Source of the DNA: Firmicutes bacterium HGW-Firmicutes-14
GTDB lineage: Bacteria; Bacillota; Thermincolia; Thermincolales; UBA2595
DNA length: 64,000 bases
Reading direction: 5' to 3'
NCBI GenBank assembly: GCA_002840275.1
Contig: PHAB01000016.1
Location: 1-64,000, forward strand
This document shows, piece by piece, positions 38,633-61,314 of the stretch (its first letter is position 1; every line of letters starts with the position of its first letter). The position numbers and the translations under genes are program-made. Below the pieces are notes generated by a model. It ran no database searches. It was not told the DNA's origin and was given only the letters and a program-made list of their open reading frames with translations.

Positions 38633-39295
38633 TTAAGGTGTTGGAGCAGGGATTTCATCCTGTCCGGGCCGGTTATCTTTAGTTTCTTCTTCCTGTGCAG
38701 GCTGTTCCTGCTGGCCGGGCGGTTCCTGCTGACCAGGCTGTTCCCGCTCGTCAGGTTCTCCGGTTTGCTCCGGAAGAGGCTTCTTCTGTGGAGCAGGCTG
38801 ATTTCCCTGGGGAGTGGTTTTCTTTTCAGTTAAACCGGTCCTGTATCCCGCCGGCGGGTATTCCTTGATACCGGAAACACCGTTTGATTCAACGGTATGA
38901 CAGGAGGAGCACCGGCCATTAAGCTTGGTATAAAAGGTCTCACTCTTCCAGTGGGCCCTGTGCATTCCCTGGTAAAATTTTTGGTAGAGGCTGAAGTTTT
39001 TCTCGGCCTCATGGCACTTGTAGCATGCGTTGACAGTTGTTTCCTTTACTTCCGGATGTCCCGGGATTTTATCAACATAAGCCGGAAGAGTCCTGTCTAC
39101 CTCCTCAGTTTTTTTATGACAGGATACACAGCCGTTTTCATATGGGTCTGCTTCAGCGGCCGATATCAGTGTTTTATATGCCGGCGCTTTATTTTCGGGT
39201 GCGGGTTTCTTTTGGGTTTCGTCGGTTTGGCAACCCAGGATAAAAACTGGTAACATCAGAATCAACAACGCCAAGGGGAAACAGCGTTTATACAT
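38633..39295 (-). CDS. Trihaem c-type cytochrome lipoprotein
   Basis: 220 residues. The lipoprotein signal LALLILMLPVFILGC is followed by three CxxCH haem sites: CVSCH, CYKCH and CSSCH (about residues 56, 91 and 129). The C-terminal 70 residues are a Pro/Gln/Glu-rich disordered tail with GQQEPPGQQEQPAQEEE. It is therefore exported and lipid-anchored, and can pass electrons at the outer face of the membrane. The tail may span the wall or bind S-layer. Gene neighbours do not reveal a partner; the decahaem cytochrome at 60 kb is a candidate. Confidence 0.92.
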   Translation of the reverse strand: MYKRCFPLALLILMLPVFILGCQTDETQKKPAPENKAPAYKTLISAAEADPYENGCVSCHKKTEEVDRTLPAYVDKIPGHPEVKETTVNACYKCHEAEKNFSLYQKFYQGMHRAHWKSETFYTKLNGRCSSCHTVESNGVSGIKEYPPAGYRTGLTEKKTTPQGNQPAPQKKPLPEQTGEPDEREQPGQQEPPGQQEQPAQEEETKDNRPGQDEIPAPTP

Positions 39296-39622: not shown

Positions 39623-40405
39623 ATGCTTAAAGAAATCACCATTCTTCCCGGCTTAGATAAAACAGGTATTATTGAAGGCTTTTCAGAAATCAACCTTAAG
39701 GCTGGAGAAACAGTCTCCATTGTCGGTCCTACCGGGAGCGGAAAAACCGCCTTTATTACGGATATCGAACTAATGGCCCAGGAAGATACATCAACCCGGC
39801 GCAGAGTACTTGTTAATGGAGAGTCACCCCCTGATGAAATCAGGTACAACCCGGCAATGAAGCCCATAGCTATGATTACTCAAAATACCAAATGCTTTGC
39901 TGACCTGTCAACGGAAGAATTCCTGCAAATCCATGCCCGGGCCCGCGGAATAACGGATAATAAAGTAATATTTAAAACCATCGACCTGGCCAACAATTTC
40001 ACGGGTGAAAAGATAACCAAGGATGTTAAGGTAACAGTCCTCTCCGGAGGGCAGACCAGATCCCTCCTGATAGCTGATGCCCTTTTAATCGGTGCAGCAC
40101 CCATAATCCTGCTGGATGAAATCGAAAATGCGGGAATCTTTAAGCAGGAAGTTATAGGAATAATTGAAAACACAGGTAAAATTATCATCTTTGTAACCCA
40201 TGACCCGGTGATAGCCCTGCTTACCCAAAAGCGTATTATAATGGAAAACGGAGCAGTGAAAAAGGTCCTCATCCAGAGTGACATTGAAACACGGGCTGCC
40301 CAAAACCTCATTGAGCTTGACAAAAGGGTTGGCTCCATAAGGGAAGAACTGCGGGCCGGGAATGTAATCACCAATGAAATGTTTTCCGTAAACTTCGCTT
40401 CATAA
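39623..40405 (+). CDS. ABC-type ATPase without membrane partner (first gene of metallocofactor-like trio)
   Basis: 260 residues with a full set of ABC motifs: Walker A GPTGSGKTAF (about 35-44), Q-loop ITQNT, signature VLSGGQTRSLLIAD (about 139-152), Walker B PIILLDEIENAG (about 160) and the switch His in FVTHDP. No permease or binding-protein gene is near, so it is probably not a transporter but a soluble ATP-driven machine. The ATG at 39623 follows GAGAGGAG. It is followed by a HypB-like GTPase and a CFeSP-type Fe-S protein on the same strand, which points to metal-centre assembly or activation (inference). Confidence 0.88.
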   Translation: MLKEITILPGLDKTGIIEGFSEINLKAGETVSIVGPTGSGKTAFITDIELMAQEDTSTRRRVLVNGESPPDEIRYNPAMKPIAMITQNTKCFADLSTEEFLQIHARARGITDNKVIFKTIDLANNFTGEKITKDVKVTVLSGGQTRSLLIADALLIGAAPIILLDEIENAGIFKQEVIGIIENTGKIIIFVTHDPVIALLTQKRIIMENGAVKKVLIQSDIETRAAQNLIELDKRVGSIREELRAGNVITNEMFSVNFAS

Positions 40406-40436
40406 TTAATCTATAGAAAAGGACGGTGAACGATAC

Positions 40437-41147
40437 TTGAAGCTTCTGGTTATCGCCGGCCCTCCATCTGCCGGTAAGACTGCGCTGACTAAACAGATAG
40501 TGAAACATTTTAAGGATGAACTGCGGCTGGCATTTTTGAAGATTGACGTGGTTAGAGCATTTGAGGATATTGAATTAAAAAAAGAGTTTAACATTATAAC
40601 CAAAAAAATATATTCCGGTGACCTCTGCCCGGACCATGCGGGTGTTATGGTTTTGGGTGATGCTGTAGAATGGGCCGAAATGAATTCTGCGGACCTGCTG
40701 ATAGTGGAAAGCGCAGGACTGTGCCTGCGCTGTTCCCCTTACCTGAACCAGGGCCTCGGGGTTATTGTCTTAAGTTCCATATCAGGAATTCATGCACCGG
40801 AAAAGATGGGAGCCATGGTCAGCCTGGCTGACATTGCTGTTGTAACTAAAATTGACCTGGTAAGCCAGGCCGAACGTGAAGTCCTTATCCAGAAAATTAA
40901 GGAGGTCCACCGGGACATAATCCTGATGGAAACTAATGCTCTTCAGGGTACTTCCCTGCAGCGGCTGTATGACCAGATTTGGAAATCCGGGGACATCGAT
41001 AAGGATTCCCTCACTCTTAAGGGAAACCCGCCCCTGGGCACATGCACTATCTGTGTGGGTAAAAAAGAGATCGGCTGGAAACACCATTTTGGTATAATCC
41101 AAAAACTTGACGGCCAGGTTGCTGAATACCTGTACAGGGGTGAATAG
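40437..41147 (+). CDS. HypB/UreG-like G3E-type GTPase with Cys motifs
   Basis: 236 residues starting at TTG 40437. G1 reads GPPSAGKTALTKQI (about 8-21), a metal-type Cys/His element is SGDLCPDHAG (about 58-67), the Walker-B-like region ends in ESAGLCLRCSPY (about 85-96) and G4 is TKIDLV. The C-terminus has GTCTICVGKKEIGWKHHFG, a CxxC with two His. These resemble nickel/cobalt-inserting G3E GTPases, but the extra Cys pairs differ from HypB or UreG. It sits between an ABC ATPase and an Fe-S protein gene, 2 bp before the latter, so the three products probably work together. Confidence 0.85.
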   Translation: MKLLVIAGPPSAGKTALTKQIVKHFKDELRLAFLKIDVVRAFEDIELKKEFNIITKKIYSGDLCPDHAGVMVLGDAVEWAEMNSADLLIVESAGLCLRCSPYLNQGLGVIVLSSISGIHAPEKMGAMVSLADIAVVTKIDLVSQAEREVLIQKIKEVHRDIILMETNALQGTSLQRLYDQIWKSGDIDKDSLTLKGNPPLGTCTICVGKKEIGWKHHFGIIQKLDGQVAEYLYRGE

Positions 41148-41149
41148 AA

Positions 41150-41800
41150 ATGAATGCAGTGAAATCCTGGCTTCCTCCGGGAAAGAACTGCGGCCTTTGC
41201 GGCGCTGACAGCTGCAAAAGCTTCCTGCGAATGATTAATGCCTCACAGAAAACATATGCCGACTGTCCATATTATGATGAACAGTGCTCCAAGAGCCGGC
41301 CCGGTTCTGTAAGTGAAGCTTTATATTCTGGCCGGGATGTCCTTGACCATCCCTATGATTTTGTCCTGGAACCTCTGCCCGGGGAACCCTCTGCCCGGAA
41401 AATAGTCCTGCCCTTCAGGGGTGACATGGTGGAAAAGATGCAGATAACCAAAGGAGATTATGTTCTTGGCCGGCCAATGGGTGCGGGATGTCCTATTCCC
41501 CACGTCCTGCAGGTAATTAAAGCTGAAGAAGTTACGGGGCTCCTCTACACCTGGGTTGTCGGGCCAAAATTTTCCAGGGACCGGATAGTGAAAGATGTTA
41601 TAGCTTACCACATGATCGGTTTTGAGGGTATTGCCGCAAAAATTGCCAGGGAACCGGCCTTCGGCTGCCGTGTAAACTTCCTGCCGGGTTTCTGTATGAT
41701 GTCCCTCAACCATACCGGCCTGGTCAACATGATCCTGGAAAAAAACTGCGGCCTGCATGTTCGGATAGAAGATATCCGTATACTGGCCGGAAAAGAATAA
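41150..41800 (+). CDS. Fe-S protein with CFeSP/AcsC-type [4Fe-4S] motif
   Basis: 216 residues. The N-terminus carries KNCGLCGADSCKSFL then DCPYYDEQC, the CxxCx4C...C arrangement of the Fe-S domain (PF04060) found in the corrinoid/iron-sulfur protein AcsC and in RnfB. The rest (DFVLEPLPGEPSARKIVLPF, GDYVLGRPMGAGCPIPHVLQ, AYHMIGFEGIAAKIAREPAF) belongs to no domain I can name. Cys residues in GAGCPIPH, FGCRVNF, GFCMMS and KNCGLH could add metal ligands. It starts 2 bp after the GTPase gene. It may be a redox partner or scaffold for corrinoid or nickel-site maturation (inference). Confidence 0.82.
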   Translation: MNAVKSWLPPGKNCGLCGADSCKSFLRMINASQKTYADCPYYDEQCSKSRPGSVSEALYSGRDVLDHPYDFVLEPLPGEPSARKIVLPFRGDMVEKMQITKGDYVLGRPMGAGCPIPHVLQVIKAEEVTGLLYTWVVGPKFSRDRIVKDVIAYHMIGFEGIAAKIAREPAFGCRVNFLPGFCMMSLNHTGLVNMILEKNCGLHVRIEDIRILAGKE

Positions 41801-43420: not shown

Positions 43421-44338
43421 TTATTTTATCTCATTTAAATCATATGGTGTTTCCTGGTAAACATAATAATTCAACCAGTTGGAAAACAGCAGGTTGGCAT
43501 GTCCCCTCCATATCACCTGAGGGTCCCGTGAGGGGTCGTCTCCCGGAAAATAATTCTGGGGAACGGCAATATCCAATCCCTTATCAATATCCCTCACATA
43601 TTCATCCTTAAGGGTAAGGGGGTCATATTCAGAATGGCCGCTGACAAAAATCTGCCGGCCGTCCTTTGAGGCAGCAATATATAAGCCTGCGATATCTGAT
43701 TCGGCCAGGACCTCCAGTTCAGATATTCTGTCTATATCCTCCCGCCTGACTTCGGTATAACGGGAATGAGGCACATAGAAAATATCGTCAAACCCCCGCA
43801 AAAGCCTGGTGTTTTTTTTGACAACCCTGTGGGGGAAAACACCGAACATTTTTTTGCCAAGCGGGTATTTGGGTACTCCATAGTGGTAAAAAAGCCCGGC
43901 CTGGGCTCCCCAGCAAAGGTAGAGGGTTGAAAATACATTTCGCCTGGCCCATTCCATGATCTGTTTTAATTCTTCCCAGTAAACCACCTCTTCAAATTCC
44001 AGGTGTTCAACCGGCGCTCCCGTAATTATCATACCGTCATATTTCCGGTCCCTGATGTATTCATATGTCTTGTAAAAGGCTATCATGTGCTCCTCAGGGG
44101 TGTTCTTGGCGGTATATGTGGCAGGATGAAGGAACTCCAGTTCCACCTGCAGGGGAGAGTTGGCCAGCAGGCGGGTTATCTGGGTTTCAGTAACTATCTT
44201 AGTAGGCATCAGGTTGAGTAGAATTATCTTAAGGGCCCGGATATCCTGATGTACCGCCCTGGTTTCATCCATTAAAAAAATGTCCTCTCCCAGAAGTACT
44301 TCTCTGGCCGGAAGGTTGTCGGGAATCTTTATTGGCAT
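43421..44338 (-). CDS. metA: Homoserine O-succinyl/acetyltransferase MetA
   Basis: About 305 residues. Hallmarks are [15 protein letters not shown] at the start, [19 protein letters not shown], the catalytic Cys in [16 protein letters not shown] (about 142) and the His in [15 protein letters not shown]. It activates homoserine for methionine synthesis. The specificity (acetyl or succinyl) is not obvious; most Firmicute MetA enzymes use acetyl-CoA. The start ATG 44338 is chosen because GAGAGGTG precedes it. Transcription is controlled by a SAM-I riboswitch. It supplies the substrate for the two gamma-synthase/lyase enzymes encoded at 53.7-56.1 kb. Confidence 0.95.
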
Positions 44339-44390
44339 CATAAACACCTCTCCATTTCACATATTCGACTTCATCTGCAATTGCTTTCAA

Positions 44391-46951: not shown

Positions 46952-47050
46952 TCACAAAATTTTCAAATTTTGCTCATATTATTGTCACATAATAGTGGTA
47001 CCATGATAACTGTAAGGCTTACACCAAGTTCTCACAAAGGAGGTGAAAAC

Positions 47051-47467
47051 ATGAAGAAACTTCCATTGATTTTAGGATTAGTCGCACTTCTCACGATGGG
47101 CACCCTGACAGTCGCAATGGCTAAGTCAAATGACCTGTTTAAGAAAAACAATGAAACATACAGGGAAGCATGGCAGTCTGTAAAAGATAACGATTTCGGC
47201 AAGGACATGTTTAAGGCGATGGAAAAAGGTGATACCGAAGCAATGAAAGAACTGATGAGTGCACCGGATGCCGCGGAAAAAATGACAGATGTTATGAACG
47301 AACCGGCAGTACAGCAGTACCATAACGAAATGCATAATGACCCCGAATTTCAGCAATACCATGATGAAATGCATCAAGACCCTGAAATGCAGAACCTGCA
47401 CAATGAGATGCACAGCGGATCCGGTTCCATGATGGGCGGCTCAATGGGTGGAATGATGGGATTTTAG
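47051..47467 (+). CDS. Secreted small His/Met-rich repeat protein
   Basis: About 138 residues starting at ATG 47051 after AAAGGAGGTG. A signal peptide (LPLILGLVALLTMGTLTVAMA) is followed by a helical region and three repeats of the type YHNEMHNDPEF / YHDEMHQDPEM / LHNEMHSG (about residues 90-125). A Met/Gly tail follows (MMGGSMGGMMGF). The regular His-x-x-Met-His pattern resembles sites for soft metals such as copper or silver, so a metal-binding periplasmic or surface role is plausible. No family is recognised. Confidence 0.78.
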   Translation: MKKLPLILGLVALLTMGTLTVAMAKSNDLFKKNNETYREAWQSVKDNDFGKDMFKAMEKGDTEAMKELMSAPDAAEKMTDVMNEPAVQQYHNEMHNDPEFQQYHDEMHQDPEMQNLHNEMHSGSGSMMGGSMGGMMGF

Positions 47468-47981: not shown

Positions 47982-48896
47982 CTAATTTCTCCACCGGAGC
48001 AAGTATACTTCAATTTTGTTGAAAACATATGTAATTGCCGTCACTACCATACCTATGAAGATAATTCCCACAATAACCCTTGAATAATCGGCAAAATCAG
48101 AAAAGTATTTGACATACCAGCCAAGTCCGGAAGTCGCGCCAATCATTTCTGCCGCGGTAAGCAGGATGAATGCTAACACAAGACCGATTGTTGAACCGCT
48201 GATTATGGCTGGAAGAGCGCCCGGTAAGATAATCTCAAAAAGCATGGTTTTTTCACTTACATTTAATGCCTTTGCCGAATCAATGATCCTTTTTTCAATG
48301 TTAAAAACCCCGTTTAGGGTATTGATAAAAATCGGCCAGAACGCGCCCACAAAAATAATAAATATTGATGAAATCATAAATGTGGGTAGTAAACCGATAG
48401 CATACGGGATATAGACTATCGGCGGAATGGGCCCCAGTACCTTTGTCAGGGGATTTACCGCATTATACAGGCGTTTCCTCCATCCGATTACCAGCGCCAG
48501 GGGAATAGCAAAAGCCAGGGCCAGCAGGTATCCTGCCAGGAGGAGTTCCATTGAATCGGCAAAACCCTTGAGAAGTACCGGTAAATCGGTTATAAATAAC
48601 GATACTATTATCCCCGGAGCCGGAAAAAGCATTTGATCCAAAATGTCCAACTTTGTCGTGAACAATTCCCAGGAGAAAATCAAGGCATATATAATGGCCG
48701 TAATATCACCTGCTGCAGTTCGTTTGTCATCATCACCGCTGACGGCAAGAATCAATAAATACAGAACCTGGATGGACACAACCAGGACGAGCAAAAAGAA
48801 TGGCCCGGTATCGTTTCTCCTGGACGGTATAATCTCCAGAAGGAGTAATAACAAAAACCCAATATTCGCTAAATTGAACAGTTTTTTCACCGGCAA
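47982..48896 (-). CDS. ABC transporter permease (NitT/TauT-type)
   Basis: 304 residues. After two short hydrophobic segments near the N-terminus, a BPD_transp_1 domain covers about 100-300, with the EAA-type loop FNIEKRIIDSAKALNVSEKT and MLFEIILPGALPAIISGSTI. It pairs with the ATPase at 48902-49708 and the binding protein at 52470-53534. Sequence type (SsuC/TauC-like) suggests a small organic anion such as a sulfonate or similar methylated compound. It ends the sulfur-linked operon. Confidence 0.92.
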   Translation of the reverse strand: MPVKKLFNLANIGFLLLLLLEIIPSRRNDTGPFFLLVLVVSIQVLYLLILAVSGDDDKRTAAGDITAIIYALIFSWELFTTKLDILDQMLFPAPGIIVSLFITDLPVLLKGFADSMELLLAGYLLALAFAIPLALVIGWRKRLYNAVNPLTKVLGPIPPIVYIPYAIGLLPTFMISSIFIIFVGAFWPIFINTLNGVFNIEKRIIDSAKALNVSEKTMLFEIILPGALPAIISGSTIGLVLAFILLTAAEMIGATSGLGWYVKYFSDFADYSRVIVGIIFIGMVVTAITYVFNKIEVYLLRWRN

Positions 48897-48901
48897 GCCC
48901 C

Positions 48902-49708
48902 CTATAGCGCCACTTCAGACCCGCCTATTTTTTGTAACACATCGTCATAAAACAGGCTGACCATTTTATTCCGCAATCCGGCATATTCCTCAGATCCAAT
49001 CAGTGCTGCCCTGTCCCGCGGCCTGGCAAATTCCACCGGAACTTCCCTGACAACCGTGCCGGGTCTGGCCGACATGACCATAATCCGGTCTGAGAGTAAA
49101 ACAGCCTCATCAATATCATGAGTTACAAATATTACGGTCTTTTTTTCGCTGCCGTTATCCCATAATTTCAGCAGCACTTCCTGTAACACTACCCTGTTTT
49201 TAGCATCGAGCGCCCCGAATGGCTCATCCATCAGCAAAACCCTGGGGTTCATGGCAAAAGCCCTGGCAATAGCCACCCTCTGCTGCATACCCCCTGATAA
49301 CTGCAAGGGATATTTGTGGGCAAAGTCCCTCAGCCCCACCAACCCCAGGTATTCATCCGCAATTTTTTCAATTGTTTTTTTGCCTGTGGATTTTTTTACC
49401 TGCCGGATACCAAATACAATATTCTGCCTGGCCGTCATCCAGGGAAACAGGGAATAATGCTGAAACACCAAGCCCCTGTCAGGGCCAGTACCTTTTATCA
49501 CCTGCCCGTCAATGAAGATACAGCCGGCGGAAGGAAAACTGAGGCCGGCCAGGAGGCTCAGCAATGTGCTTTTGCCACAGCCGCTCGGCCCGATTATGCT
49601 GACAAATTCCCCTTCATGCACAGAAATATTAATACCCTCAACCGCGGGCAGGGCAGCGCCCCGGTCCTCATATGCATATGAGACATTTTCCAGTCTGATT
49701 TTTGTCAT
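48902..49708 (-). CDS. ABC transporter ATPase (SsuB/TauB-type)
   Basis: About 268 residues with Walker A GPSGCGKSTLLSLLAG, Q-loop VFQHYSLFPW, signature LSGGMQQRVAIARAFA, Walker B VLLMDEPFGALD and the switch His in FVTHDIDEA. It matches the nitrate/sulfonate/taurine subfamily. The start ATG 49708 follows AAGGGG; longer in-frame starts would overlap the DUF1847 gene. It is 5 bp ahead of its permease. Confidence 0.95.
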   Translation of the reverse strand: MTKIRLENVSYAYEDRGAALPAVEGINISVHEGEFVSIIGPSGCGKSTLLSLLAGLSFPSAGCIFIDGQVIKGTGPDRGLVFQHYSLFPWMTARQNIVFGIRQVKKSTGKKTIEKIADEYLGLVGLRDFAHKYPLQLSGGMQQRVAIARAFAMNPRVLLMDEPFGALDAKNRVVLQEVLLKLWDNGSEKKTVIFVTHDIDEAVLLSDRIMVMSARPGTVVREVPVEFARPRDRAALIGSEEYAGLRNKMVSLFYDDVLQKIGGSEVAL

Positions 49709-49748
49709 CTCATAAATCCCCTTATTGATATAAGTCATCTGATATAAC

Positions 49749-50414
49749 TTATCCGTTATAATCGTCCGTTTCTTCCAGCAGCCGGGCATAATAAAACCCG
49801 CTTGTATAGAGAGCCGCTGCCGGGTTGTGCCCCATGACCCTGTCCTTGGTGATCAGAGTGGTCACCAGGGCCTTGGAGTATTTGATAAACAGCGAGTCAT
49901 GTCCCACACAGAGTCCCACAATGACATTCAAATCTGTTTTGGCCCTGTTCAGCAGCCTGGCCTGCAGGATTGGATTACACAGGGATTCGTGGCAACCTTT
50001 CTTAACTTTTAAATCTTCCGCTACCCCAACCTCCGTCTTATCAGTTGAGCCTACCTTGCAGATGACACAATAGCTTTCCAGTCCTTTTGCCTTCAGTATT
50101 TTCGCGAAAATCCTTGCTTCGTTCATCAACCCCACACAGGTTGCTATACCTATCTTTTTGGCCCCTGTCTTTTTGGCAAAAGCAATGATTTCCTCAGCCC
50201 TGGTGAGCTTGCCATAGTACAGGCCCTCTATTTCCGCTGCTGCATGAGATATTTTAGCAATAGTCTCGTCATTGGTATAAAGTTTATTTGTTTTATCTAT
50301 TTCTTTACTGCTCGTACCCACTGTCAGGCAAAAAGCCGGGAACTCTTTTTCCCTCCTGTAGCAGTTGACTACACCGCAATCCGAGCAGCTTAGTTTATTG
50401 GGCCGGTCATTCAT
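49749..50414 (-). CDS. DUF1847 metal-binding protein
   Basis: 221 residues. The N-terminus has a Cys-rich site, LSCSDCGVVNCYRREKEFPA, and further Cys residues occur in IATCVGLMNE, SYCVICKVG, KGCHESLCNPI and IVGLCVGHDS. The order fits DUF1847 proteins, which are thought to bind metal but have no proven function. It begins 1 bp after the UroD-type gene and precedes the ABC genes. Its constant company with UroD-type methyltransferases suggests a role as redox or corrinoid-related partner (inference). Confidence 0.88.
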   Translation of the reverse strand: MNDRPNKLSCSDCGVVNCYRREKEFPAFCLTVGTSSKEIDKTNKLYTNDETIAKISHAAAEIEGLYYGKLTRAEEIIAFAKKTGAKKIGIATCVGLMNEARIFAKILKAKGLESYCVICKVGSTDKTEVGVAEDLKVKKGCHESLCNPILQARLLNRAKTDLNVIVGLCVGHDSLFIKYSKALVTTLITKDRVMGHNPAAALYTSGFYYARLLEETDDYNG

Positions 50415-50415
50415 T

Positions 50416-51522
50416 TTATTTCCTCCCTTGACAGTTTTTCATCGGCTGACAGTTTTCCCACATGACTAGCAGTTTTTCCGCATCGACAGGGTAGCCCACC
50501 GACCTCACGGTATCAAGCATGGCATGAATATTGGCAAATGGGGTTTCTGTCGGCAGGCTGCACCCTGAGGCCACAATAAAACCTTTGGGGTTACCAAAAC
50601 CCTTTAACATACACTCCAGCACCTCCCGGCGGACATAGTCAGGACTGCCCATCAGCATTGTCTCGGAAGGCCTGACATTTCCCATTAGCCGTACTTTATC
50701 CCCGATTTTCAGTTTACACTCCAGGAGATCGGCATCACTATCAATACTGAGACAGTCTGCCCCTGTCATGGCCATTAACTCCCAGATTGGTTTGGTATTG
50801 CCACAGATATGGAGAGTTACTTTTTGGCCCCTGGAATGAATATAATCGATGATTCTTTTAAGGTATGGAAACGAAAACTCCTTGAACTGCCTGGGTCCGA
50901 TAACGGCACAGGATGACATGGCGTCAGTAAGGCTGGGGGTACACCCGGCATCGATAATCGCTTTTATGTAGTTTAGGGCGGTAGCCAGTGAAATCTCGCA
51001 TAGCTTGTGGACAATCGGCGGGTTTTTGATGGTGAGTTTGACCAGAAGTTCGGTGCCGATTAACAGTGAAGCATTGGTAAAGGGTCCGGTTACAGCCCCG
51101 GTTACCACAGCTTCCCGGCCTATTTCCTCTACGGCTGTTTTCATCGCTTCCAGGTGATGGGGGAGGTTGCCGTCCCGGTGTGGATCCGCTGGCTCCAGCC
51201 GGTCTATCTCTGAAAGGTCATTTATGGCCGGGGCTTCGTGATACGCTGTTTCATCGGGAGGATAATGGATTTTGGCCCCCATGGCTTCGGCCAGGGTATA
51301 GAGGTCGGTAAATATCCGGATAATGTCATACTTAAACATCCTGTATGCTTCCACCTGGGCTTTGGCAATTAATTTTCCGTTTCTCCGGAACTCCGATACC
51401 TTAACTCCAATTACCCGGGCCGCCGTATTCCCTACGATTGGCACACAGGGCAGCCTGTCCACCGGTTCTCCCCTGTTATAAGCCGACATCCTCTCGATTG
51501 GTGTCATTTGATCTCTGAACAT
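50416..51522 (-). CDS. UroD-fold corrinoid methyltransferase in the sulfur operon
   Basis: 368 residues. The UroD fold is seen in RMSAYNRGEPVDRLPCVPIV at the start, and the zinc signature is HICG in VTLHICGNTKPI (about 245) with a late Cys in VASGCSLPTETP. ATG 51522 follows GGGAGA. There is no corrinoid protein gene in this operon, so it must borrow one, for example from 6-9 kb. Between cysK and DUF1847/ABC importer genes it is best explained as demethylating an imported S-methyl compound (inference). Confidence 0.9.
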   Translation of the reverse strand: MFRDQMTPIERMSAYNRGEPVDRLPCVPIVGNTAARVIGVKVSEFRRNGKLIAKAQVEAYRMFKYDIIRIFTDLYTLAEAMGAKIHYPPDETAYHEAPAINDLSEIDRLEPADPHRDGNLPHHLEAMKTAVEEIGREAVVTGAVTGPFTNASLLIGTELLVKLTIKNPPIVHKLCEISLATALNYIKAIIDAGCTPSLTDAMSSCAVIGPRQFKEFSFPYLKRIIDYIHSRGQKVTLHICGNTKPIWELMAMTGADCLSIDSDADLLECKLKIGDKVRLMGNVRPSETMLMGSPDYVRREVLECMLKGFGNPKGFIVASGCSLPTETPFANIHAMLDTVRSVGYPVDAEKLLVMWENCQPMKNCQGRK

Positions 51523-51540
51523 CAGTGCTTCTCCCTTTAT

Positions 51541-52467
51541 TTATTCCTGGAACATCGCCGTACTCAGGTATCTTTCGCCTGTATCGGGTAATATAGCCAC
51601 AATCATCTTGCCTTTGTTTTCAGGCCGCCTGGCCAGCTCCAGGGCGGCATGAGCAGCGGCCCCGGACGAAATTCCCACCAGGAGGCCTTCTTCCCTAGCC
51701 AGGAGGCGGCCGGCCTCAAAGGCTTCTTCGTTTTTTACCCGGAAGACTTCATCGATGATTTCAACATTAAGAACCGCAGGCACAAATCCGGCTCCGATGC
51801 CCTGGATCTTATGGGGTCCGGGCGCTCCTCCCGATAAAACCGGGGAATCTTCAGGCTCCACAACTACGATTATTAATTCCGGCTTGCGTTTTTTGATAAC
51901 TTCACCGGCACCTGTAATGGTTCCCCCGGTTCCGACTCCCCCAACCAGGATATCGATCCTGCCGCCGGTATCCTCCCAGATTTCTTCCGCGGTGGTGGTC
52001 CGGTGAATCTCAGGGTTGGCCGGGTTGTTAAACTGCTGGGGGACGAAGGAATCAGGAATTTCGGCCGCCAGTTCTTCGGCTTTCCGGATAGCCCCTTTCA
52101 TCCCTTCGGCGCCTGGTGTCAGTACCAGTTCCGCGCCAAAGGCTTTAATCATGTTCCGGCGTTCCACACTCATAGTATCGGGCATTGCCAGGATCAAACG
52201 GTAACCTTTGGCTGCCGCCACAAACGCCAGGGCAATACCGGTATTGCCGCTGGTCGGCTCAATAATGACCGTATCTTTTGTGATCAGCCCCTTGTCTTCA
52301 GCATCCTTCAGCATGGCAAAACCTATCCGGTCCTTGACACTGCCTCCCGGGTTAAATGCTTCCAGTTTAACAATCACATCAGCATCCAGTCCCTGTGAAA
52401 GCCGGTTAAGTTTGAGTAATGGCGTTTTTCCAATCAGTTCCGTTAAATTACCGGCTATTTTAGTCAT
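51541..52467 (-). CDS. cysK: Cysteine synthase (O-acetylserine sulfhydrylase)
   Basis: About 308 residues. The PLP Lys is in [15 protein letters not shown] (about 43), the substrate loop is [14 protein letters not shown], and the phosphate-binding loop is [11 protein letters not shown]. All match CysK. The start ATG 52467 follows GGGAGG; TTG at 52473 would overlap the previous stop. Incorporates sulfide into O-acetylserine. It lies directly after the binding-protein gene and before the UroD-type gene, tying the operon to sulfur assimilation. Confidence 0.95.
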
Positions 52468-52469
52468 AA

Positions 52470-53534
52470 TCAATTCCTCCCGTTTTTGAATTCCGATTTT
52501 AATTTTTTGTATACCGGGTTTCCGGGGTCTTCCTGCAGCAGTTCCCCAATGGCCTGGGAATATATGTCTGTGTTTATGTAATCCTTAATGTTCTTGTCAG
52601 AAGATATGTACCCGGCTTCATTCATCATCCCCCAGAACTTAACAATACCCTCCTTGTCGGGGTCCGGATTGCTGGAGATGTGGCCGCCGTATGTTTCTGC
52701 CTCAATGATATCTTTGTCGATTTTTACGTACTTGGAAATCATGTCAACTGTTTCGGTTTTCTTATTCTGATAGAAACCATAAGCCTTAATTAATGCTCTT
52801 GAGAACTTCTTGTAGTCTTCGGGATTTTCCGTGATTTTTGAAGTTAGGGCTACCTGGCGGCAGCAGGTATGCTCGCTGATTAAATCACCGGAGTATTTGA
52901 CGATTTTCAGGCCCTGCTGTTCAGCCATCTTCATATAGGGAGCCCATACCACACCGGCATCAACCGAACCCTTCTTCACAGCTTCCAAGACAGCTGCCGG
53001 TGAATCAAGTTCCTGAAATGTCACCTCTGTCTTCCAGTCAATGCCCGCCTGCTGAAGGGCGCCCCGGAATACCACATCTCCTGTGGCCAGCCTGACCGTT
53101 GCCACGGTTTTGCCCCTGAAACTGTTCAGGTCCTGAAACCGGTCAGCATTTTCCGGTTTAGCAACGATACCGGCGCCTTCTGATTGCTGCCCGCCAAAAA
53201 GCGTAAATTCAGCCCCTTTGGCAATAAAGATCAGCGGCGCAGCGGTTCCGAACGATCCTGCATCTATCTTCCCTGCTTTCACGGCATTTAAGCCCTCACC
53301 TGAATTGGTAAACTGGAACATTTCCACATCCAGGCCTTCTTCCTGAAAATAACCTTTCTCCTGAGCTACAAAATAAAGTACGTGGCCTGGAGTCGGCAGG
53401 TATCCCACATTGAATTTCTTGAGGCTTTTTTCCTCCTGGCTTGTTCCGGCAGACCCGTTTCTGTCACCACACCCTGTAAATGTCAATAAACCAATTACTA
53501 AAAGAACAACCAATCCCCATAATCTCCTGTCCAT
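52470..53534 (-). CDS. ABC transporter solute-binding lipoprotein (NMT1/SsuA-like)
   Basis: About 354 residues. The lipoprotein signal [20 protein letters not shown] is followed by a two-lobe domain with [20 protein letters not shown] and [16 protein letters not shown], typical of NitT/TauT-type binding proteins. A motif [11 protein letters not shown] (about residue 235) parallels DHPCC in the broken binding protein at 1-975. ATG 53534 is chosen because AAGGAGGT precedes it and gives a proper signal peptide. It is the first gene of the operon and its ligand should define the pathway. Confidence 0.93.
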
Positions 53535-53569
53535 GTTAAACCTCCTTATTATTCGCCTTAGGTGGCATT

Positions 53570-53636
53570 TCCTAGTATTCTTATCGGTTTTTACTAGTAT
53601 GCTTTTTATATTAGCAAAGACATCTATTAATGTCAA
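53570..53636 (-). promoter_or_regulatory. Promoter and shared operator of the sulfur-transport operon
   Basis: On the minus strand TTGACA (plus 53631-53636), a 17-bp spacer and TAATAT (53608-53613) form a near-ideal promoter. Downstream lies AAACCGATAAGAATACTAGGA (read on the minus strand, plus 53570-53590 region), plus an earlier ACTAGTA. The same block occurs at 56336-56356. It is placed to act as an operator that blocks elongation or initiation, as with CymR/Rrf2-type sulfur repressors (inference). Confidence 0.75.
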
Positions 53637-53681
53637 TTGTTTTTTTATTAAAAATAATGCGGCCCCAAAAGGAGTCTATAT

Positions 53682-53711
53682 AAAAAGGAAGCCAAAAACC
53701 GGCTTCCTCCC
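53682..53711 (-). terminator. Terminator of the gamma-synthase/lyase operon
   Basis: GGAAGCC (53687-53693) pairs with GGCTTCC (53701-53707). On the minus strand the stem is followed by TTTTTA. It lies between the lyase operon and the promoter of the transport operon. Confidence 0.85.
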
Positions 53712-53741
53712 CTGTCAAACCTCGTGTTCAAATTTAATTTT

Positions 53742-54881
53742 TTAAATTTTTTTTATTGCTGCTTCCAGGTCGGCAACCAAATCATCTGGATCCTCAAGGC
53801 CCACCGACAGCCTGACAAGGTCATCCGTTACCCCGGTTCGCTCCCTGTGGGCCGGATGCATACCTGCATGGGACATGTTAACAGGGTATGAAATGATACT
53901 TTCCACACCCCCCAGGCTGACAGCCAGGGCAGGCAAACACAGGGCCTCCAGCACCTGCCTGGCAGCCGGCCCGTCTTTCATCCTGAAGGACACAATCCCC
54001 CCGGGCCCCCCGGCCTGCCTGTCGTGAATATCCTTCCCCGGGTGGTCCGGCAATCCAGGGAAATATACCTGTCTTATCTCCGGCTGCCGGGAAAGCCATT
54101 CAGCAACTTTCGCCGCACCTTGCTGGTGCATGTCCATACGGGCTTTCAGGGTCTTTATCCCCCTCATCAGCAGCCAGCAATCCTGGGGACCCAGGATTGC
54201 GCCAAAGGCATTCTGGATAAACCCGATGCGGGCTGCCGTTTCTTTATCAGCCGCAACTACCAGGCCGGCTATCAGGTCACTGTGTCCCCCCAGGTACTTT
54301 GTTCCACTATGGATGACTATATCTATTCCCATTTCAATAGGTCTCTGCAAGTAAGGAGTCATAAAGGTGTTATCCACAATGGTTAACAGCCCCTTTTCCC
54401 TGGCTGTTTCCGAAAGCACCTGCAGGTCTGTAATCCTGAGCAGCGGGTTGGAAGGTGTTTCTGCAAACAGGGCTTTGGTATTTTCTCTGACAGCCGCCTT
54501 AACCTTCGCGGGGTCGGTGAAATCAACGAAAGTAGCCTCAATCCCCAGCCGGTTGAACAACTGGGTCAGGACACGGTAAGTCCCGCCATAGACATCTTCA
54601 GTCACCACAAGGTGGTCTCCCGGAGAAAATATCAGGAACACACTTGATAAAGCTGCCATTCCCGAGGAAAAGGCAAACCCGTCAATACCTCCCTCCAATT
54701 CGGTAATAATTGACTCAAGGGCATCCCTTGTAGGATTCCCGGAACGGCCATAGCTGTATGGCCCGAACTCACCGGCCTTTTCCTGCCGGTAGGTGGAAGC
54801 ATGGTATACAGGGACACTGAGGGCGCCTGTATTACGGTCAATTTCATTTCCTGTATGAAGGATTCGCGTACCTATTTTCAT
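53742..54881 (-). CDS. Cys/Met metabolism PLP enzyme (cystathionine gamma-synthase/lyase family), second of tandem pair
   Basis: About 379 residues. The PLP Lys is in VIHSGTKYLGGHSDLIAGLV, and the cofactor-phosphate motif is FAFSSGMAALSSVFL. The YSYGRSGNPTRDALE block near the start is typical. It overlaps the preceding paralog by ATGA, so translation is coupled. GGGAGG supports ATG 54881. Whether it acts as cystathionine gamma-synthase, cystathionine lyase or methionine gamma-lyase cannot be read from the sequence. The pair could run transsulfuration in both directions. Confidence 0.92.
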   Translation of the reverse strand: MKIGTRILHTGNEIDRNTGALSVPVYHASTYRQEKAGEFGPYSYGRSGNPTRDALESIITELEGGIDGFAFSSGMAALSSVFLIFSPGDHLVVTEDVYGGTYRVLTQLFNRLGIEATFVDFTDPAKVKAAVRENTKALFAETPSNPLLRITDLQVLSETAREKGLLTIVDNTFMTPYLQRPIEMGIDIVIHSGTKYLGGHSDLIAGLVVAADKETAARIGFIQNAFGAILGPQDCWLLMRGIKTLKARMDMHQQGAAKVAEWLSRQPEIRQVYFPGLPDHPGKDIHDRQAGGPGGIVSFRMKDGPAARQVLEALCLPALAVSLGGVESIISYPVNMSHAGMHPAHRERTGVTDDLVRLSVGLEDPDDLVADLEAAIKKI

Positions 54882-56062
54882 AAATGAGCCTCCCAACCGT
54901 CAAATGCCTGTCTTAAATCGTCCAGCAAATCATCAATATCCTCGATGCCTGCCGACAACCTGAGCAGCCTGTCATTAATACCCATTCGCTCACGCTCGGC
55001 AGGGTCTATGTCAGCATGAGTCTGGAAAGCCGGAAATGTCATGAGGGTTTCGACACCTCCGAGGCTTTCAGCAAAAGAAACCAGTTTTATACTGTTAAGA
55101 ATTTTTTCTGCCACTCCCCTGTTTATCACCTCGAAAGACACCATCGCCCCGAAACCCTTGGCCTGTTTTCTTAATACTTTTTTGCCCGGATGGCTGTCAA
55201 GGCCAGGGTAAAACACCCTGGTTACCGGTTCCCGGTCTGCCAGCCACTCTGCTATGAGCCTGGCATTTTCAGACTGGCGGTCGAGTCTCACACCCAGGGT
55301 TTTCATTCCCCTTATAACCAGCCAGCTGTCCTGAGGGCCAAGCACAGCGCCAACCGAATTCTGGAGGAATGCAACCCGTTCTGCAGTTTCTTCATCTTTT
55401 ACAACCACCAGGCCCGCCACTGTATCATTATGTCCTGACAGATATTTTGTGGCGCTGTACACAACTATGTCTGCACCCAGGTCAAGAGGACGCTGCAGGT
55501 AAGGGGTCATAAAGGTATTGTCAGCAATGGTCACAATGCCTCTCTCCCGTGCCATACGGCTGATAGCCGGAATGTCGGCCACCTTCAGCAGCGGGTTGGT
55601 CGGTGATTCAACCAGTATAGCCACTGTGGTCTCCCTTAGAGCCTGGCTAACCTGATAGATGTCACTGGTGTCCACATAGGAAGTTTTGATCCCAAACCGG
55701 CGGAATACCGCGTCTAAAAGCCTGTATGTACCTCCATATAAATCTTCAGTCACTACCAGGTGGTCGCCGGGCCGGAACAGCAGTAAAAGGTTGGTAACAG
55801 CCGCCATTCCTGAAGAATAAGCAAAACCCCCTGCTCCATCATCCAGAAGGGCAATACCCTCTTCCAGCACTTTCCGGGTAGGGTTGCCTGTACGGGAATA
55901 GTCATAACCGGTACTCTCCCCCAGGGCCGGGTGCCTGAAAGTTGCTGTCTGGTAAATCGGTGGTGATATTGCACCCGTATAATCTGACCCCACTCCTATC
56001 TGGACGGCCTTTGTAGCAATTTTTTTAGCAGCGACATTTTTAGTGCCGGCTTCCTCGGGCAT
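54878..56062 (-). CDS. Cys/Met metabolism PLP enzyme (cystathionine gamma-synthase/lyase family), first of tandem pair
   Basis: 394 residues. Motifs are YDYSRTGNPTRKVLEEGIAL, the phosphate loop GFAYSSGMAAVTNLL and the PLP Lys in VVYSATKYLSGHNDTVAGLV. The N-terminal 15 residues are Lys/Ala-rich and not part of the fold. ATG 56062 follows TAGGAGG. Two tandem, diverged copies suggest one synthase and one lyase. It is read from the same promoter as the truncated MoeB/ThiF remnant upstream. Confidence 0.92.
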   Translation of the reverse strand: MPEEAGTKNVAAKKIATKAVQIGVGSDYTGAISPPIYQTATFRHPALGESTGYDYSRTGNPTRKVLEEGIALLDDGAGGFAYSSGMAAVTNLLLLFRPGDHLVVTEDLYGGTYRLLDAVFRRFGIKTSYVDTSDIYQVSQALRETTVAILVESPTNPLLKVADIPAISRMARERGIVTIADNTFMTPYLQRPLDLGADIVVYSATKYLSGHNDTVAGLVVVKDEETAERVAFLQNSVGAVLGPQDSWLVIRGMKTLGVRLDRQSENARLIAEWLADREPVTRVFYPGLDSHPGKKVLRKQAKGFGAMVSFEVINRGVAEKILNSIKLVSFAESLGGVETLMTFPAFQTHADIDPAERERMGINDRLLRLSAGIEDIDDLLDDLRQAFDGWEAHL

Positions 56063-56101
56063 TCTTATTCCACCCTCCTATGGTTAATTGTTTTTCGTCC
56101 G

Positions 56102-56275
56102 TCAGCGCCTGGCCGGTAAAGCGGAGAATGCTGCCGGTGACCCCAAACCCCCGGCCCCGATAATCAATACCCTGCTCCTGCTAATTTTCTTCTGCCCCTT
56201 ACCGCCGACTTCAGGAAGAATTATATGCCTGCTGTATCTTATTATCTGTTTCTCGCTAAATTCAAATTCTGGCAT
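56102..56275 (-). pseudogene. Truncated MoeB/ThiF-type adenylyltransferase remnant
   Basis: A 57-residue frame from ATG 56275 reads MPEFEFSEKQIIRYSRHIIL, then LPEVGGKGQKK, then VLIIGAGGLGSPAA, the very characteristic N-terminus and nucleotide-binding loop of MoeB/ThiF/HesA proteins. It stops at 56102 where about 190 more residues should follow. The rest has been deleted, and the lyase gene begins only 39 bp later. Such E1-like enzymes load sulfur-carrier proteins, so the remnant suggests the locus once carried a sulfur-transfer step. Confidence 0.85.
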
Positions 56276-56335
56276 TTTATTACCAATGTGCTCCTTTTTC
56301 TTTCCTGTACCGGTATTGAATCCAGCACCCTTATA

Positions 56336-56405
56336 TCCTAGTATTCATATCGGTTTATTATAATTTTGTTTGTTTTATGTTATCAAAGGCCATTATTAAT
56401 GTCAA
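56336..56405 (-). promoter_or_regulatory. Promoter and shared operator of the lyase operon
   Basis: On the minus strand TTGACA (plus 56400-56405), 17 bp and TAACAT (56377-56382). The plus-strand block TCCTAGTATTC-ATATCGGTTT (56336-56356) matches 53570-53590 with one difference. The flank AATGTCAATTG with the -35 box is also the same. A duplicated control region is the simplest explanation. Confidence 0.75.
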
Positions 56406-56450
56406 TTGTTTTTTAAAAACTATAAAAGCGCGCATATTTTCCTTTAATAT

Positions 56451-56487
56451 AAAAAAGGCCTGGCCCCAGTCACCGGGACAGACCTTC
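56451..56487 (-). terminator. Terminator of the UroD-type gene at 56543-57616
   Basis: On the minus strand GGTCTGTCCCGG and GGGGCCAGGCC pair (one mismatch and one G-T pair) and are followed by TTTTTT. Confidence 0.75.
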
Positions 56488-56542
56488 AACGCTTTATTAC
56501 GCTAATTGTTTAATTTTTTTGTTTTCTTTGCAGACACGGTTG

Positions 56543-57616
56543 TCAATCGTAAAAGCCATAGTCCCTCAGGGCCTTCATCATATAATGCATATTTATGGGC
56601 GGGGCCTGAACAGGGACCTCACAACCTGCCATCAAAACAAATCCCCTGGGGGAATCTTTGCCCTCCAGGATGCACCTTTTGGTTTCCTCATAGACCTCTT
56701 CAGGGGTACCCATCTGGATAATTGTTGTATTTATGTTTCCGGCAATGATATTCTTGTCCCCGAACATCCTTACCGCCTTTTCCAGGCTGACTTCATGCCC
56801 AAAACTGACAATACCGGGACTGCCGTAATTCACTTTCTGCCAATGGGGCAAATTCAGGTTCTGTTCTCCGCAGATGTGTGAGAAAAACGTTCTGATTCCT
56901 TTGACAATTGCTTTATCGTGTATCTCCGAAACATAAGGAAGGGCAAACTCCTCAAACTGTCCCGGGGAAATCAGCTGGTTGGCTTCAGTAGGTCCGCCGT
57001 CAAAAGCCATCATTCTCTCAGCTCCATACCGTTCTATAAACAGGTCAATAACTTTAAGCAAAAAATCGGTGGATTTTCTTAATGTCATATGAACAAGCCT
57101 TGGTTCTTTTTTCATCCACTTGAGCATTAGTTCCTCACCTATAGTGGTTCCGGCAAAGGTAAAAGGTGTACCGGCATGTACAATTACAGGCATCCCATAT
57201 TCGGCCTGCATGTCAGAAAAGCGCAGCATCAAAGGCACTGCACCGCACCGGCTGACATCGTCAGGAACCTGATACATTTCCACTGCTTCCGGAGTGTTCA
57301 AAGGATGTCTTGTCACATGAGGGGCTTGTTCGTATTTACCATAGGGAAAATGTAATTCGCCTCCCAGTTCCCAGCCGCCGTACGAAGCATACCCATAGAG
57401 GGGTGAGCCGTCATAGCCGAACATTTCCTGGGTCAGCATCTGTGCCCGGAAACTAATTTCCGGTTCCGCGTAAATATCACCAACTTTATATCCTGTTGTA
57501 ACAGCAGTATACCCGAAGATAAAGGGAATGAAAGGTACCCTGTCCGGCTTCTTCCCAGACAGCAGGGCATGCATCCGTTCCGGAGGAGACATTCTTTCAT
57601 GGCAGTTGTGAGTCAT
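56543..57616 (-). CDS. UroD-fold corrinoid methyltransferase, divergent from MarR
   Basis: About 357 residues. UroD-type N-terminus (SPPERMHALLSGKKPDRVPF), zinc motif HICG in FFSHICGEQNLN and late Cys in LMAGCEVPVQAPP. Start ATG 57616 follows TTAGGAGG; a start 16 codons upstream would lack a site. No corrinoid gene adjoins. It is divergently arranged with the MarR-type regulator at 57880, about 260 bp away, so the regulator may control it. Substrate is unknown. Confidence 0.9.
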   Translation of the reverse strand: MTHNCHERMSPPERMHALLSGKKPDRVPFIPFIFGYTAVTTGYKVGDIYAEPEISFRAQMLTQEMFGYDGSPLYGYASYGGWELGGELHFPYGKYEQAPHVTRHPLNTPEAVEMYQVPDDVSRCGAVPLMLRFSDMQAEYGMPVIVHAGTPFTFAGTTIGEELMLKWMKKEPRLVHMTLRKSTDFLLKVIDLFIERYGAERMMAFDGGPTEANQLISPGQFEEFALPYVSEIHDKAIVKGIRTFFSHICGEQNLNLPHWQKVNYGSPGIVSFGHEVSLEKAVRMFGDKNIIAGNINTTIIQMGTPEEVYEETKRCILEGKDSPRGFVLMAGCEVPVQAPPINMHYMMKALRDYGFYD

Positions 57617-57801
57617 TTTTAACACCCTCCTAATTATTTTTAGAAGAATCCTGGAATGTCTCAAGTGTCAAAAGTAGCCTGACCGGACTTCTTACCCTGA
57701 TATAACCGTTCTTCAATTACTACATCTTTAGTAATTCATATTTTACATCAAATTTCTTTTCATTACAAACAACAATCGTAAAAACAGGTCATCTACACCA
57801 A

Positions 57802-60336: not shown

Positions 60337-61314
60337 ATGCAGGAACATCGCAAAACTATTCTTATTATTTGTGGCATCATAGTTTTTTTGGTTTTTTCCA
60401 CAGTGGCCTTTGCCAGCCTCGGTTTTGTCAGAAGTCCCAACGATAAAGCATCTGCCAATGAGATGCAGAAGTCAGAGAACAGCTGTGTCGACTGTCACCA
60501 GATTAAACCTGAGGTCCTTACCTGGAAGATTTCTTCTCATAGTAAAATAGCGTGTACCAGCTGCCATGACACAGATCCCTCCAGGTACAGCAAAGAGGCC
60601 GGCCACACCGGCGCTAATAGTGCCAAACCGGTCAGGATATCTGAAGCAATCTCCAACAATGTCTGTGAACAGTGCCATACCGCCAACAGGGAAGCAACAG
60701 TATCCGGTGACCTGATTATCCCCCACGACAGGCATTCCCAGGCAGGAGTCACATGTGTCAAATGCCACAGTGGAGTTGTACACGCCAAGATTTCAGAACG
60801 GGACTTTTCAACAGAGGGTGAATTGAGTGACCCTGAGAAGTGGGATATAGATACTGCCAGGAAAGTATCAACCAAGTACTACCGGCAGCCCAGTATGTGG
60901 ACATGTATAAATTGTCATAAACAGGTCAATGTTACCCGCAGGTGCAGCGCATGTCATACTACCATTCCCAGTCTCCCGTCCCACGATAGCCCGGCCTGGA
61001 AATCCCAGCACGGCAAAACAGCACGTTCTGCTATAGGAGAATGTACCAAGTGCCATGTTACACCCGGTCAGCCCAAATTCGTCTCACCGTCAACAGGAGA
61101 TCAGGCTGCTGATTTCGCCCAGGCGCAGGAGTTTTGCTCCAACTGCCATCTCCAGCGGCCGGAAATGCACGAAAATTCTATGGTTCCTGTCCATCCCGGG
61201 AAAGTTGGAGAGCGTGGTTTACCCAACTGCCTTACCTGTCATGACAAAGAACAGCCGAAACCTGATGCTAAAGTTACCGGTACTTATTGTAACCAGTGTC
61301 ACTGGTTACAATAA
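60337..61314 (+). CDS. Decahaem c-type cytochrome with N-terminal membrane anchor
   Basis: 325 residues. One hydrophobic segment (TILIICGIIVFLVFSTVAFA) is followed by ten CxxCH sites: CVDCH, CTSCH, CEQCH, CVKCH, CINCH, CSACH, CTKCH, CSNCH, CLTCH and CNQCH. The N-terminal part resembles NapC/NirT-like cytochromes. It should accept electrons from the quinone pool, possibly through the NrfD-type membrane protein at 62245-63549, and deliver them to an external acceptor. ATG 60337 follows AAGGAGGT. Confidence 0.95.
   Translation: MQEHRKTILIICGIIVFLVFSTVAFASLGFVRSPNDKASANEMQKSENSCVDCHQIKPEVLTWKISSHSKIACTSCHDTDPSRYSKEAGHTGANSAKPVRISEAISNNVCEQCHTANREATVSGDLIIPHDRHSQAGVTCVKCHSGVVHAKISERDFSTEGELSDPEKWDIDTARKVSTKYYRQPSMWTCINCHKQVNVTRRCSACHTTIPSLPSHDSPAWKSQHGKTARSAIGECTKCHVTPGQPKFVSPSTGDQAADFAQAQEFCSNCHLQRPEMHENSMVPVHPGKVGERGLPNCLTCHDKEQPKPDAKVTGTYCNQCHWLQ

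Follow-up and report, generated by a model that had tools for sequence, protein, structure and literature searches.

An ABC ATPase, a HypB-like GTPase and an Fe-S protein that accompany sulfonate biosynthesis genes: a candidate sulfite source in methanogens and spore-forming Clostridia

Three adjacent genes and their products

Three plus-strand genes in the window (the whole 64,000-nucleotide stretch analysed here) encode a soluble ABC-type ATPase, a G3E-family GTPase and an Fe-S protein, with start codons ATG, TTG and ATG, respectively, and intergenic gaps of 31 bp (ABC/GTPase) and 2 bp (GTPase/Fe-S). These ORF coordinates confirm the three-gene set that the original prediction had placed, with the same gaps, at 39623-41800. 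The label COG2000 for the Fe-S protein is taken from the literature (PMC12068725).

39623..40405, plus strand: soluble ABC-type ATPase, 260 aa (PF00005, E 1.6e-14)
40437..41147, plus strand: G3E-family (CobW/HypB/UreG) GTPase, 236 aa (PF02492, E 3.1e-11)
41150..41800, plus strand: COG2000-type Fe-S protein, 216 aa (PF04060, E 2.9e-7)
41177..41272, plus strand: N-terminal [4Fe-4S] domain of the Fe-S protein, residues 10-41, with C14, C17, C22 and C39 (PF04060; AF2/Foldseek; HMM match)
41330..41788, plus strand: C-terminal beta-rich domain of the Fe-S protein, approximately residues 61-213 (34-sequence alignment; AF2 mean pLDDT 86.9)

The ABC ATPase has no membrane domain, and its motifs are intact (Walker A GPTGSGKT, Q-loop Q87, LSGGQ signature, Walker B LLDE and the H193 switch), their positions being kept in at least 97% of 53 homologues; the D-loop region, E168-N-A-G-I-F-K174, is atypical and hardly varies. 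The GTPase belongs by its G domain to the CobW/HypB/UreG group (PF02492), and its closest PDB match is HypB 2hf8 (residues 8-171). HypB (TIGR00073) is also its best named model, yet its 61.6 bits fall short of the cut-off (121.2), and the corresponding GTPases of all 24 carrier genomes described below score 58-76 bits. One cysteine coincides in position with that of the Cys-His metal motif in HypB, but the motif is modified (SGDLCPDH, GLCLRC): the histidine is displaced (CPDH), CLRC and CTIC are extra, the latter within an additional C-terminal TCTIC...HHF segment, and the N-terminal Cys-rich extension of HypB is missing. The three cysteine pairs named in the original prediction (CPDH, CLRC and CTIC) are thus present, and they are conserved, with C64, H67, C96, C99, C203 and C206 each found in at least 97% of 56 sequences; mean column identity is 84% across 18 bacterial genomes. 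Judged by these motifs and scores, the protein is HypB-like but not HypB.

The Fe-S protein was expected to carry the [4Fe-4S] motif of AcsC, which holds for its N-terminal ~40 residues but not for residues ~60-213, a separate domain. The PF04060 match spans residues 10-41 only, and the AF2 model of this part resembles the large subunit of the corrinoid Fe-S protein CFeSP (AcsC/CdhE; 9fzy_F/4djd_C) over 37-39 columns (Foldseek probability 0.99-1.0, rmsd 1.4-2.2 Å), a likeness also found by HMM comparison with 4djd_C. Unlike the CFeSP subunit, the protein lacks a corrinoid-binding domain and its C-terminal domain is unrelated: Pfam gave no match past residue 41 and no corrinoid-binding domain, whole-chain Foldseek against the PDB gave no match at E<=0.001 and none that was convincing for the C-terminal domain, and two AF2 models (pLDDT 81 and 87) in two PDB Foldseek runs had only the N-terminal Fe-S domain recognised. 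This C-terminal domain (~150 residues) is nevertheless more conserved than the N-terminal part. In an alignment of 34 bacterial and archaeal sequences, 44 positions of the protein are invariant between the two domains of life, and the invariant residues of the C-terminal domain include C114, H118, C182, H188, R83, R90, R108, R143 and R174; the two cysteines and two histidines, together with the five arginines, could plausibly form a metal and oxyanion site. One Heliophilum homologue (L066, 10001-10714) has a Cys/His-rich insertion in the linker (GCGCSEHKCSTCHC), possibly an extra metal site confined to one lineage. In genome G117 (L023; G117:C40), in-frame TAA codons occur within the frames of both the Fe-S gene and spoIVA, and may reflect sequencing errors, read-through of the search frame or decay in that genome.

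A sulfur-assimilation-like cluster on the minus strand of the window (47982-57664) encodes an NMT1/sulfonate-type ABC permease, ATPase and binding protein, DUF1847, two URO-D (methyltransferase-like) proteins, CysK and two proteins of the cystathionine gamma-synthase family, and MetA (PF04204) is encoded at 43421-44347; genes resembling the gamma-synthase and URO-D ones also occur close to the trio in L033 and L066. The window further holds multihaem electron-transfer genes: one for a CxxCH-rich lipoprotein-like product lies just upstream of the three genes (38633-39295, minus strand) and is found likewise in Thermincola (L031/L032), and two others encode a cytochrome c7-like protein (60337-61314, plus strand) and an NrfD-type membrane protein (62245-63549, minus strand).

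Conservation of the set and its association with sulfonate genes

Carriers were defined in a sample of 399 genomes of the phylum by a full-length homologue of the Fe-S protein, giving 24 carriers from 11 families and 375 non-carriers; the co-occurrence figures below all come from this single sample, and none of their p-values is corrected for phylogeny. Homologues of the ABC ATPase and the GTPase adjoin the Fe-S gene in every carrier locus (24/24), so the clustering is not due to chance. Among 84,980 species genomes scanned, 104 relatives were found, the best 80 of which were analysed as contigs; the order ABC-GTPase-FeS is kept in 76 of these 80, and no permease is among the conserved neighbours. 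That the three genes form a conserved unit is therefore virtually certain, and the permease-free character originally proposed for it is borne out. Within the best 80 of the 104, bacterial relatives come from Thermincola, Pelotomaculum, heliobacteria, Dethiobacter and other Clostridia, and the others from Methanomicrobiales, two Methanomassiliicoccales-type loci, one UBP3 and one Auribacterota genome. Archaeal members share 51-63% identity with the window proteins, a single GTPase match (48%) excepted. In the tree, the 42 bacterial rows (the window and L031-L072), all Bacillota except for a contig labelled Desulfovibrio, form a single clade against the archaea (support 100/96). The exception (L072, JAGVAS010000147.1) groups within the Bacillota clade and is probably a mis-binned contig.

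In the bacteria, the trio is found with genes for phosphosulfolactate synthase (ComA) and ComB, whose identities were confirmed with Pfam and NCBIfam. Nine of the 42 loci L031-L072 have ComA near the trio. The order comA-comB-ABC-GTPase-FeS occurs in L041, L043/L179 and L177, comA lies directly upstream of the trio in L037 and L039, and it is a few kb downstream in four Pelotomaculum-type loci. At the genome level, ComA is present in 23/24 carriers against 112/375 non-carriers (odds ratio 54, p=7e-11, uncorrected for descent), the only carrier without it being G066 (99% complete). In a family-level check, agreement of at least 10 of the 11 families by chance has a probability of ~1.5e-4, assuming independent ComA presence at the overall 34%. 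The host genome has comB and comA together, but on another contig than the trio; the likely end product in the host is 3-sulfolactate, plausibly for spores. The comA-trio block of L037 adjoins a gerA spore-germination operon (Pfam), and sequence clustering and similarity place the same neighbours in L039/L178, L043/L179 and L177. Sporulation itself was rejected as a discriminator: SpoIVA is present in 24/24 carriers but is uninformative because nearly all controls have it too. A GerD-like spore germination protein is encoded 5 kb from the trio in the window (46970-47467, plus strand). An MFS transporter gene recurs near comA (L174, 8226-9656, in the host's own genome; L173, 1913-3220; L042, cluster c25), and its product is a candidate sulfolactate exporter.

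All 36 archaeal loci (among the best 80 of 104 relatives) have the trio immediately upstream of MMP16, cysteate synthase and/or ComDE; the six genes stand in one order in 24 of the 36, most of the others being cut by contig ends. Two Methanogenium loci (L076 and L078) have the trio followed by cysteate synthase and ComDE, with no MMP16 detected between. Family checks on L094 gave 498 bits for MMP16 (TIGR03287) and 548 bits for cysteate synthase (TIGR03844), and its ComDE-like sulfopyruvate decarboxylase scored above the cut-off in the alpha domain and below it in the beta domain. The methanogen trio is already on record, without a function, since Chadwick et al. 2025 note the same three protein types, an ATPase, a 'Ni2+-binding GTPase' and a COG2000 Fe-S protein, beside methanogen coenzyme M genes in the legend of their Fig. 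2 and write that 'their putative role remains unknown' (PMC12068725). Our loci match theirs in having all three homologues adjacent in the same order (76 of the best 80 of 104 relatives), and the archaeal ones also in the same-order runs with MMP16, cysteate synthase and ComDE. The trio of the Clostridia differs in forming a separate clade, in its tie to ComA/ComB and in standing apart from a full coenzyme M pathway. Our literature search found no published account of this bacterial branch or of the sulfite argument made below, and the original view that the combination could not be named was fair, the sole match in the literature consulted being that unassigned trio in a figure legend. The three genes form an ancient, strongly conserved set that accompanies sulfonate-building enzymes, and very probably they serve sulfonate synthesis.

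A variant occurs in Auribacterota and UBP3 (L106, 7037-14645; L102, 1-5326), where an SDR epimerase gene separates the Fe-S gene from those of the ABC ATPase and the GTPase (order FeS, SDR, ABC, GTPase). The split set lies within a pseudaminic-acid-like cluster (Polysacc_synt_2, DegT aminotransferase, cytidylyltransferase, PseG-like, GNAT) whose product is possibly a sulfur-containing sugar acid. The SDR gene was considered as an SQD1-like sulfite user, a reading left unsupported because a PDB search gave only UDP-/dTDP-sugar epimerases and dehydratases.

Sulfite supply and competing explanations

Cysteate synthase converts phosphoserine and sulfite to cysteate. Phosphoserine is its starting point (PMC12068725), and ComA adds sulfite to phosphoenolpyruvate (PMC3087415); the steps after sulfite use differ between the archaeal and bacterial contexts, which leaves sulfite as the shared need. 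Our leading reading, at a probability of roughly 0.5, is that the trio provides sulfite for sulfonate biosynthesis. If so, carriers are expected to tend to be without the sulfate route. ATP sulfurylase (Sat) was found in 2/24 carriers versus 27/56 ComA-bearing non-carriers (p=7e-4, uncorrected for phylogeny, the 56 being hand-picked rather than random), and within the window's own family in 0/4 carriers and 2/2 tested ComA-bearing non-carriers; neither Sat nor CysH/CysD was found in the host genome. CysH/CysD alone, called by score and length, was rejected as a complementary pattern (5/24 carriers versus 18/56 ComA-bearing non-carriers, p=0.42). Sat or CysH/CysD is present in 6/24 carriers, and both are missing from 24/56 ComA-bearing non-carriers, which shows that there are other sources of sulfite; given these genomes and the lack of contrast in CysH/CysD, we read the Sat pattern as a tendency, not a rule.

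Gene arrangements bear on the same question. In the non-carrier G135 (L173 = G135:C12, 1913-7703), comA lies beside an MFS transporter gene with cysH and sat 1.4 kb downstream, that is, sulfate-derived sulfite genes stand where other genomes hold the trio. This arrangement echoes Bacillus subtilis, in which yitBA-yisZ are the sulfate-to-sulfite genes (sulfate activation and reduction) and yitCD are the comAB homologues. For yitCD and yitBA-yisZ together, a role in making phosphosulfolactate late in sporulation has been inferred, sulfolactate making up 5% of spore dry weight (PMC517825). The trio would fill the same slot, sulfite for phosphosulfolactate in a spore former, with unrelated proteins (Fe-S protein, ATPase and GTPase versus sulfate activation and reduction). 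For methanogen coenzyme M the sulfite source is unresolved in the literature, a Dsr-like protein having been both proposed and doubted (PMC3448663, PMC5116941). Several observations speak against sulfite supply: besides the incomplete Sat contrast, one carrier (G066) has no ComA, comAB and the trio are on different contigs in the host, the split set of UBP3/Auribacterota fits only if the sugar of that cluster is sulfonated, and no fold match backs a sulfur-oxidising active site.

The trio might instead serve sulfonate synthesis otherwise, by sequestering or channelling toxic sulfite, by sensing it or by supporting a pathway enzyme, which we consider a serious but minority possibility. The same ComA co-occurrence and operons fit such a role, the Arg-rich conserved domain of the Fe-S protein could simply bind an oxyanion, and a chaperone or channel would be useful to methanogens, which are sulfite-sensitive (PMC10229431). 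However, the tendency to replace sulfate activation and the comA-cysH-sat arrangement favour supply over handling. We also know of no need of ComA, ComB or cysteate synthase for Fe-S or nickel maturation, a further point against such a role.

Delivery of reduced sulfur (sulfide or persulfide) or of electrons to COG1900 thiolation enzymes (MMP16/ComF, L-aspartate semialdehyde sulfurtransferase) is unlikely. MMP16 adjoins the trio in most archaeal loci, PF01837 is enriched in carriers (17/24 versus 116/375 non-carriers, p=2e-4) and the host has one PF01837 gene, but the odds ratio of 5.4 is ten-fold weaker than the 54 for ComA, and the host protein scores 135.7 bits against an MMP16 cut-off of 364. 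PF01837 was rejected as an obligatory partner, being missing in 7/24 carriers, heliobacteria included. Moreover, the comA-comB-trio operons hold no thiolation enzyme, and in L076 and L078 the trio stands next to cysteate synthase, with no MMP16 detected in between.

The original prediction was of a machine that assembles or reductively activates a metal centre, perhaps of nickel or corrinoid, with CODH/ACS among the genes to be compared, and the ATP- and GTP-driven Fe-S chemistry that it envisaged is plausible; the target is not supported, the partners found by neighbourhood and co-occurrence being sulfonate-biosynthesis genes. A HypB-like GTPase with conserved Cys/His, a CFeSP-like Fe-S domain and the precedent of an ABC-type ATPase in methyl-coenzyme M reductase activation (PMC12176620) would suit such a centre. 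Against it, acetyl-CoA synthase (PF03598) shows no co-occurrence (6/24 carriers versus 107/375 non-carriers, Fisher p=0.82), canonical HypB is above the cut-off in only 13/24 carriers (11/24 without), the Fe-S protein is without a corrinoid-binding domain, and the window's corrinoid-type (URO-D) genes form a separate minus-strand cluster. We regard this explanation as decidedly unlikely. Least probable by far is that the ATPase drives an ordinary importer: it belongs to PF00005, and the supposed absence of a nearby transport partner was wrong to the extent that a sulfonate/NMT1-type permease (47985-48896, minus strand) and a binding protein (52473-53636) are encoded in the window, the permease ~6 kb downstream, but the permease is on the other strand and not an obvious partner because it has its own adjacent ATPase (48905-49789) and lies near the binding-protein gene, and no permease is conserved beside the trio across the loci compared.

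A possible mechanism and its meaning for anaerobic sulfonate synthesis

Sulfite supply by the trio could work as follows, although we infer from motifs and gene context that sulfite is what is made, where the sulfur comes from, which metal takes part and what ATP and GTP do. The setting would be strict anaerobes mostly unable to make sulfite from sulfate. The HypB-like GTPase may load or gate a metal site on the Fe-S protein (C114/H118/C182/H188), the conserved arginines of which could hold an oxyanion, and a soluble ABC ATPase dimer may drive a conformational or electron-transfer step. Reduced sulfur (sulfide or persulfide) would be converted to sulfite and handed on to phosphosulfolactate synthase (ComA) in Clostridia and to cysteate synthase in methanogens, with electrons leaving via the N-terminal [4Fe-4S] cluster. 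The sulfite/sulfide potential is ~ -0.12 V, so passing sulfide electrons to ferredoxin- or F420-level carriers would be uphill and an energy input would be sensible. Component A2 of methyl-coenzyme M reductase activation, an ATP-dependent process, offers an analogy in manner of working only: there, too, a soluble ABC-type ATPase without a membrane domain powers Fe-S redox chemistry (PMC12176620), but with other partners and with the nickel of F430 as its target. This particular scheme, the oxidation of reduced sulfur to sulfite by the trio, is tentative. Equally speculative is the fuller proposal of a hitherto unrecognised, siroheme-free, ATP- and GTP-dependent sulfite synthase in methanogens and spore-forming Clostridia, with a catalytic part of new fold that has a Cys/His/Arg site; such an enzyme might be the source, so far missing, of the sulfite for coenzyme M and for anaerobic sulfolactate.

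The sulfonates concerned are coenzyme M in methanogenic archaea and sulfolactate in spore-forming bacteria. Making coenzyme M requires sulfite, although methanogens grow on sulfide and their methanogenesis is poisoned by free sulfite. Found from methanogens to heliobacteria beside or together with sulfite-consuming sulfonate enzymes, the trio is a concrete candidate for the source of that sulfite, and it suggests that in strictly anaerobic spore formers there may be a route to sulfolactate that does not start from sulfate.
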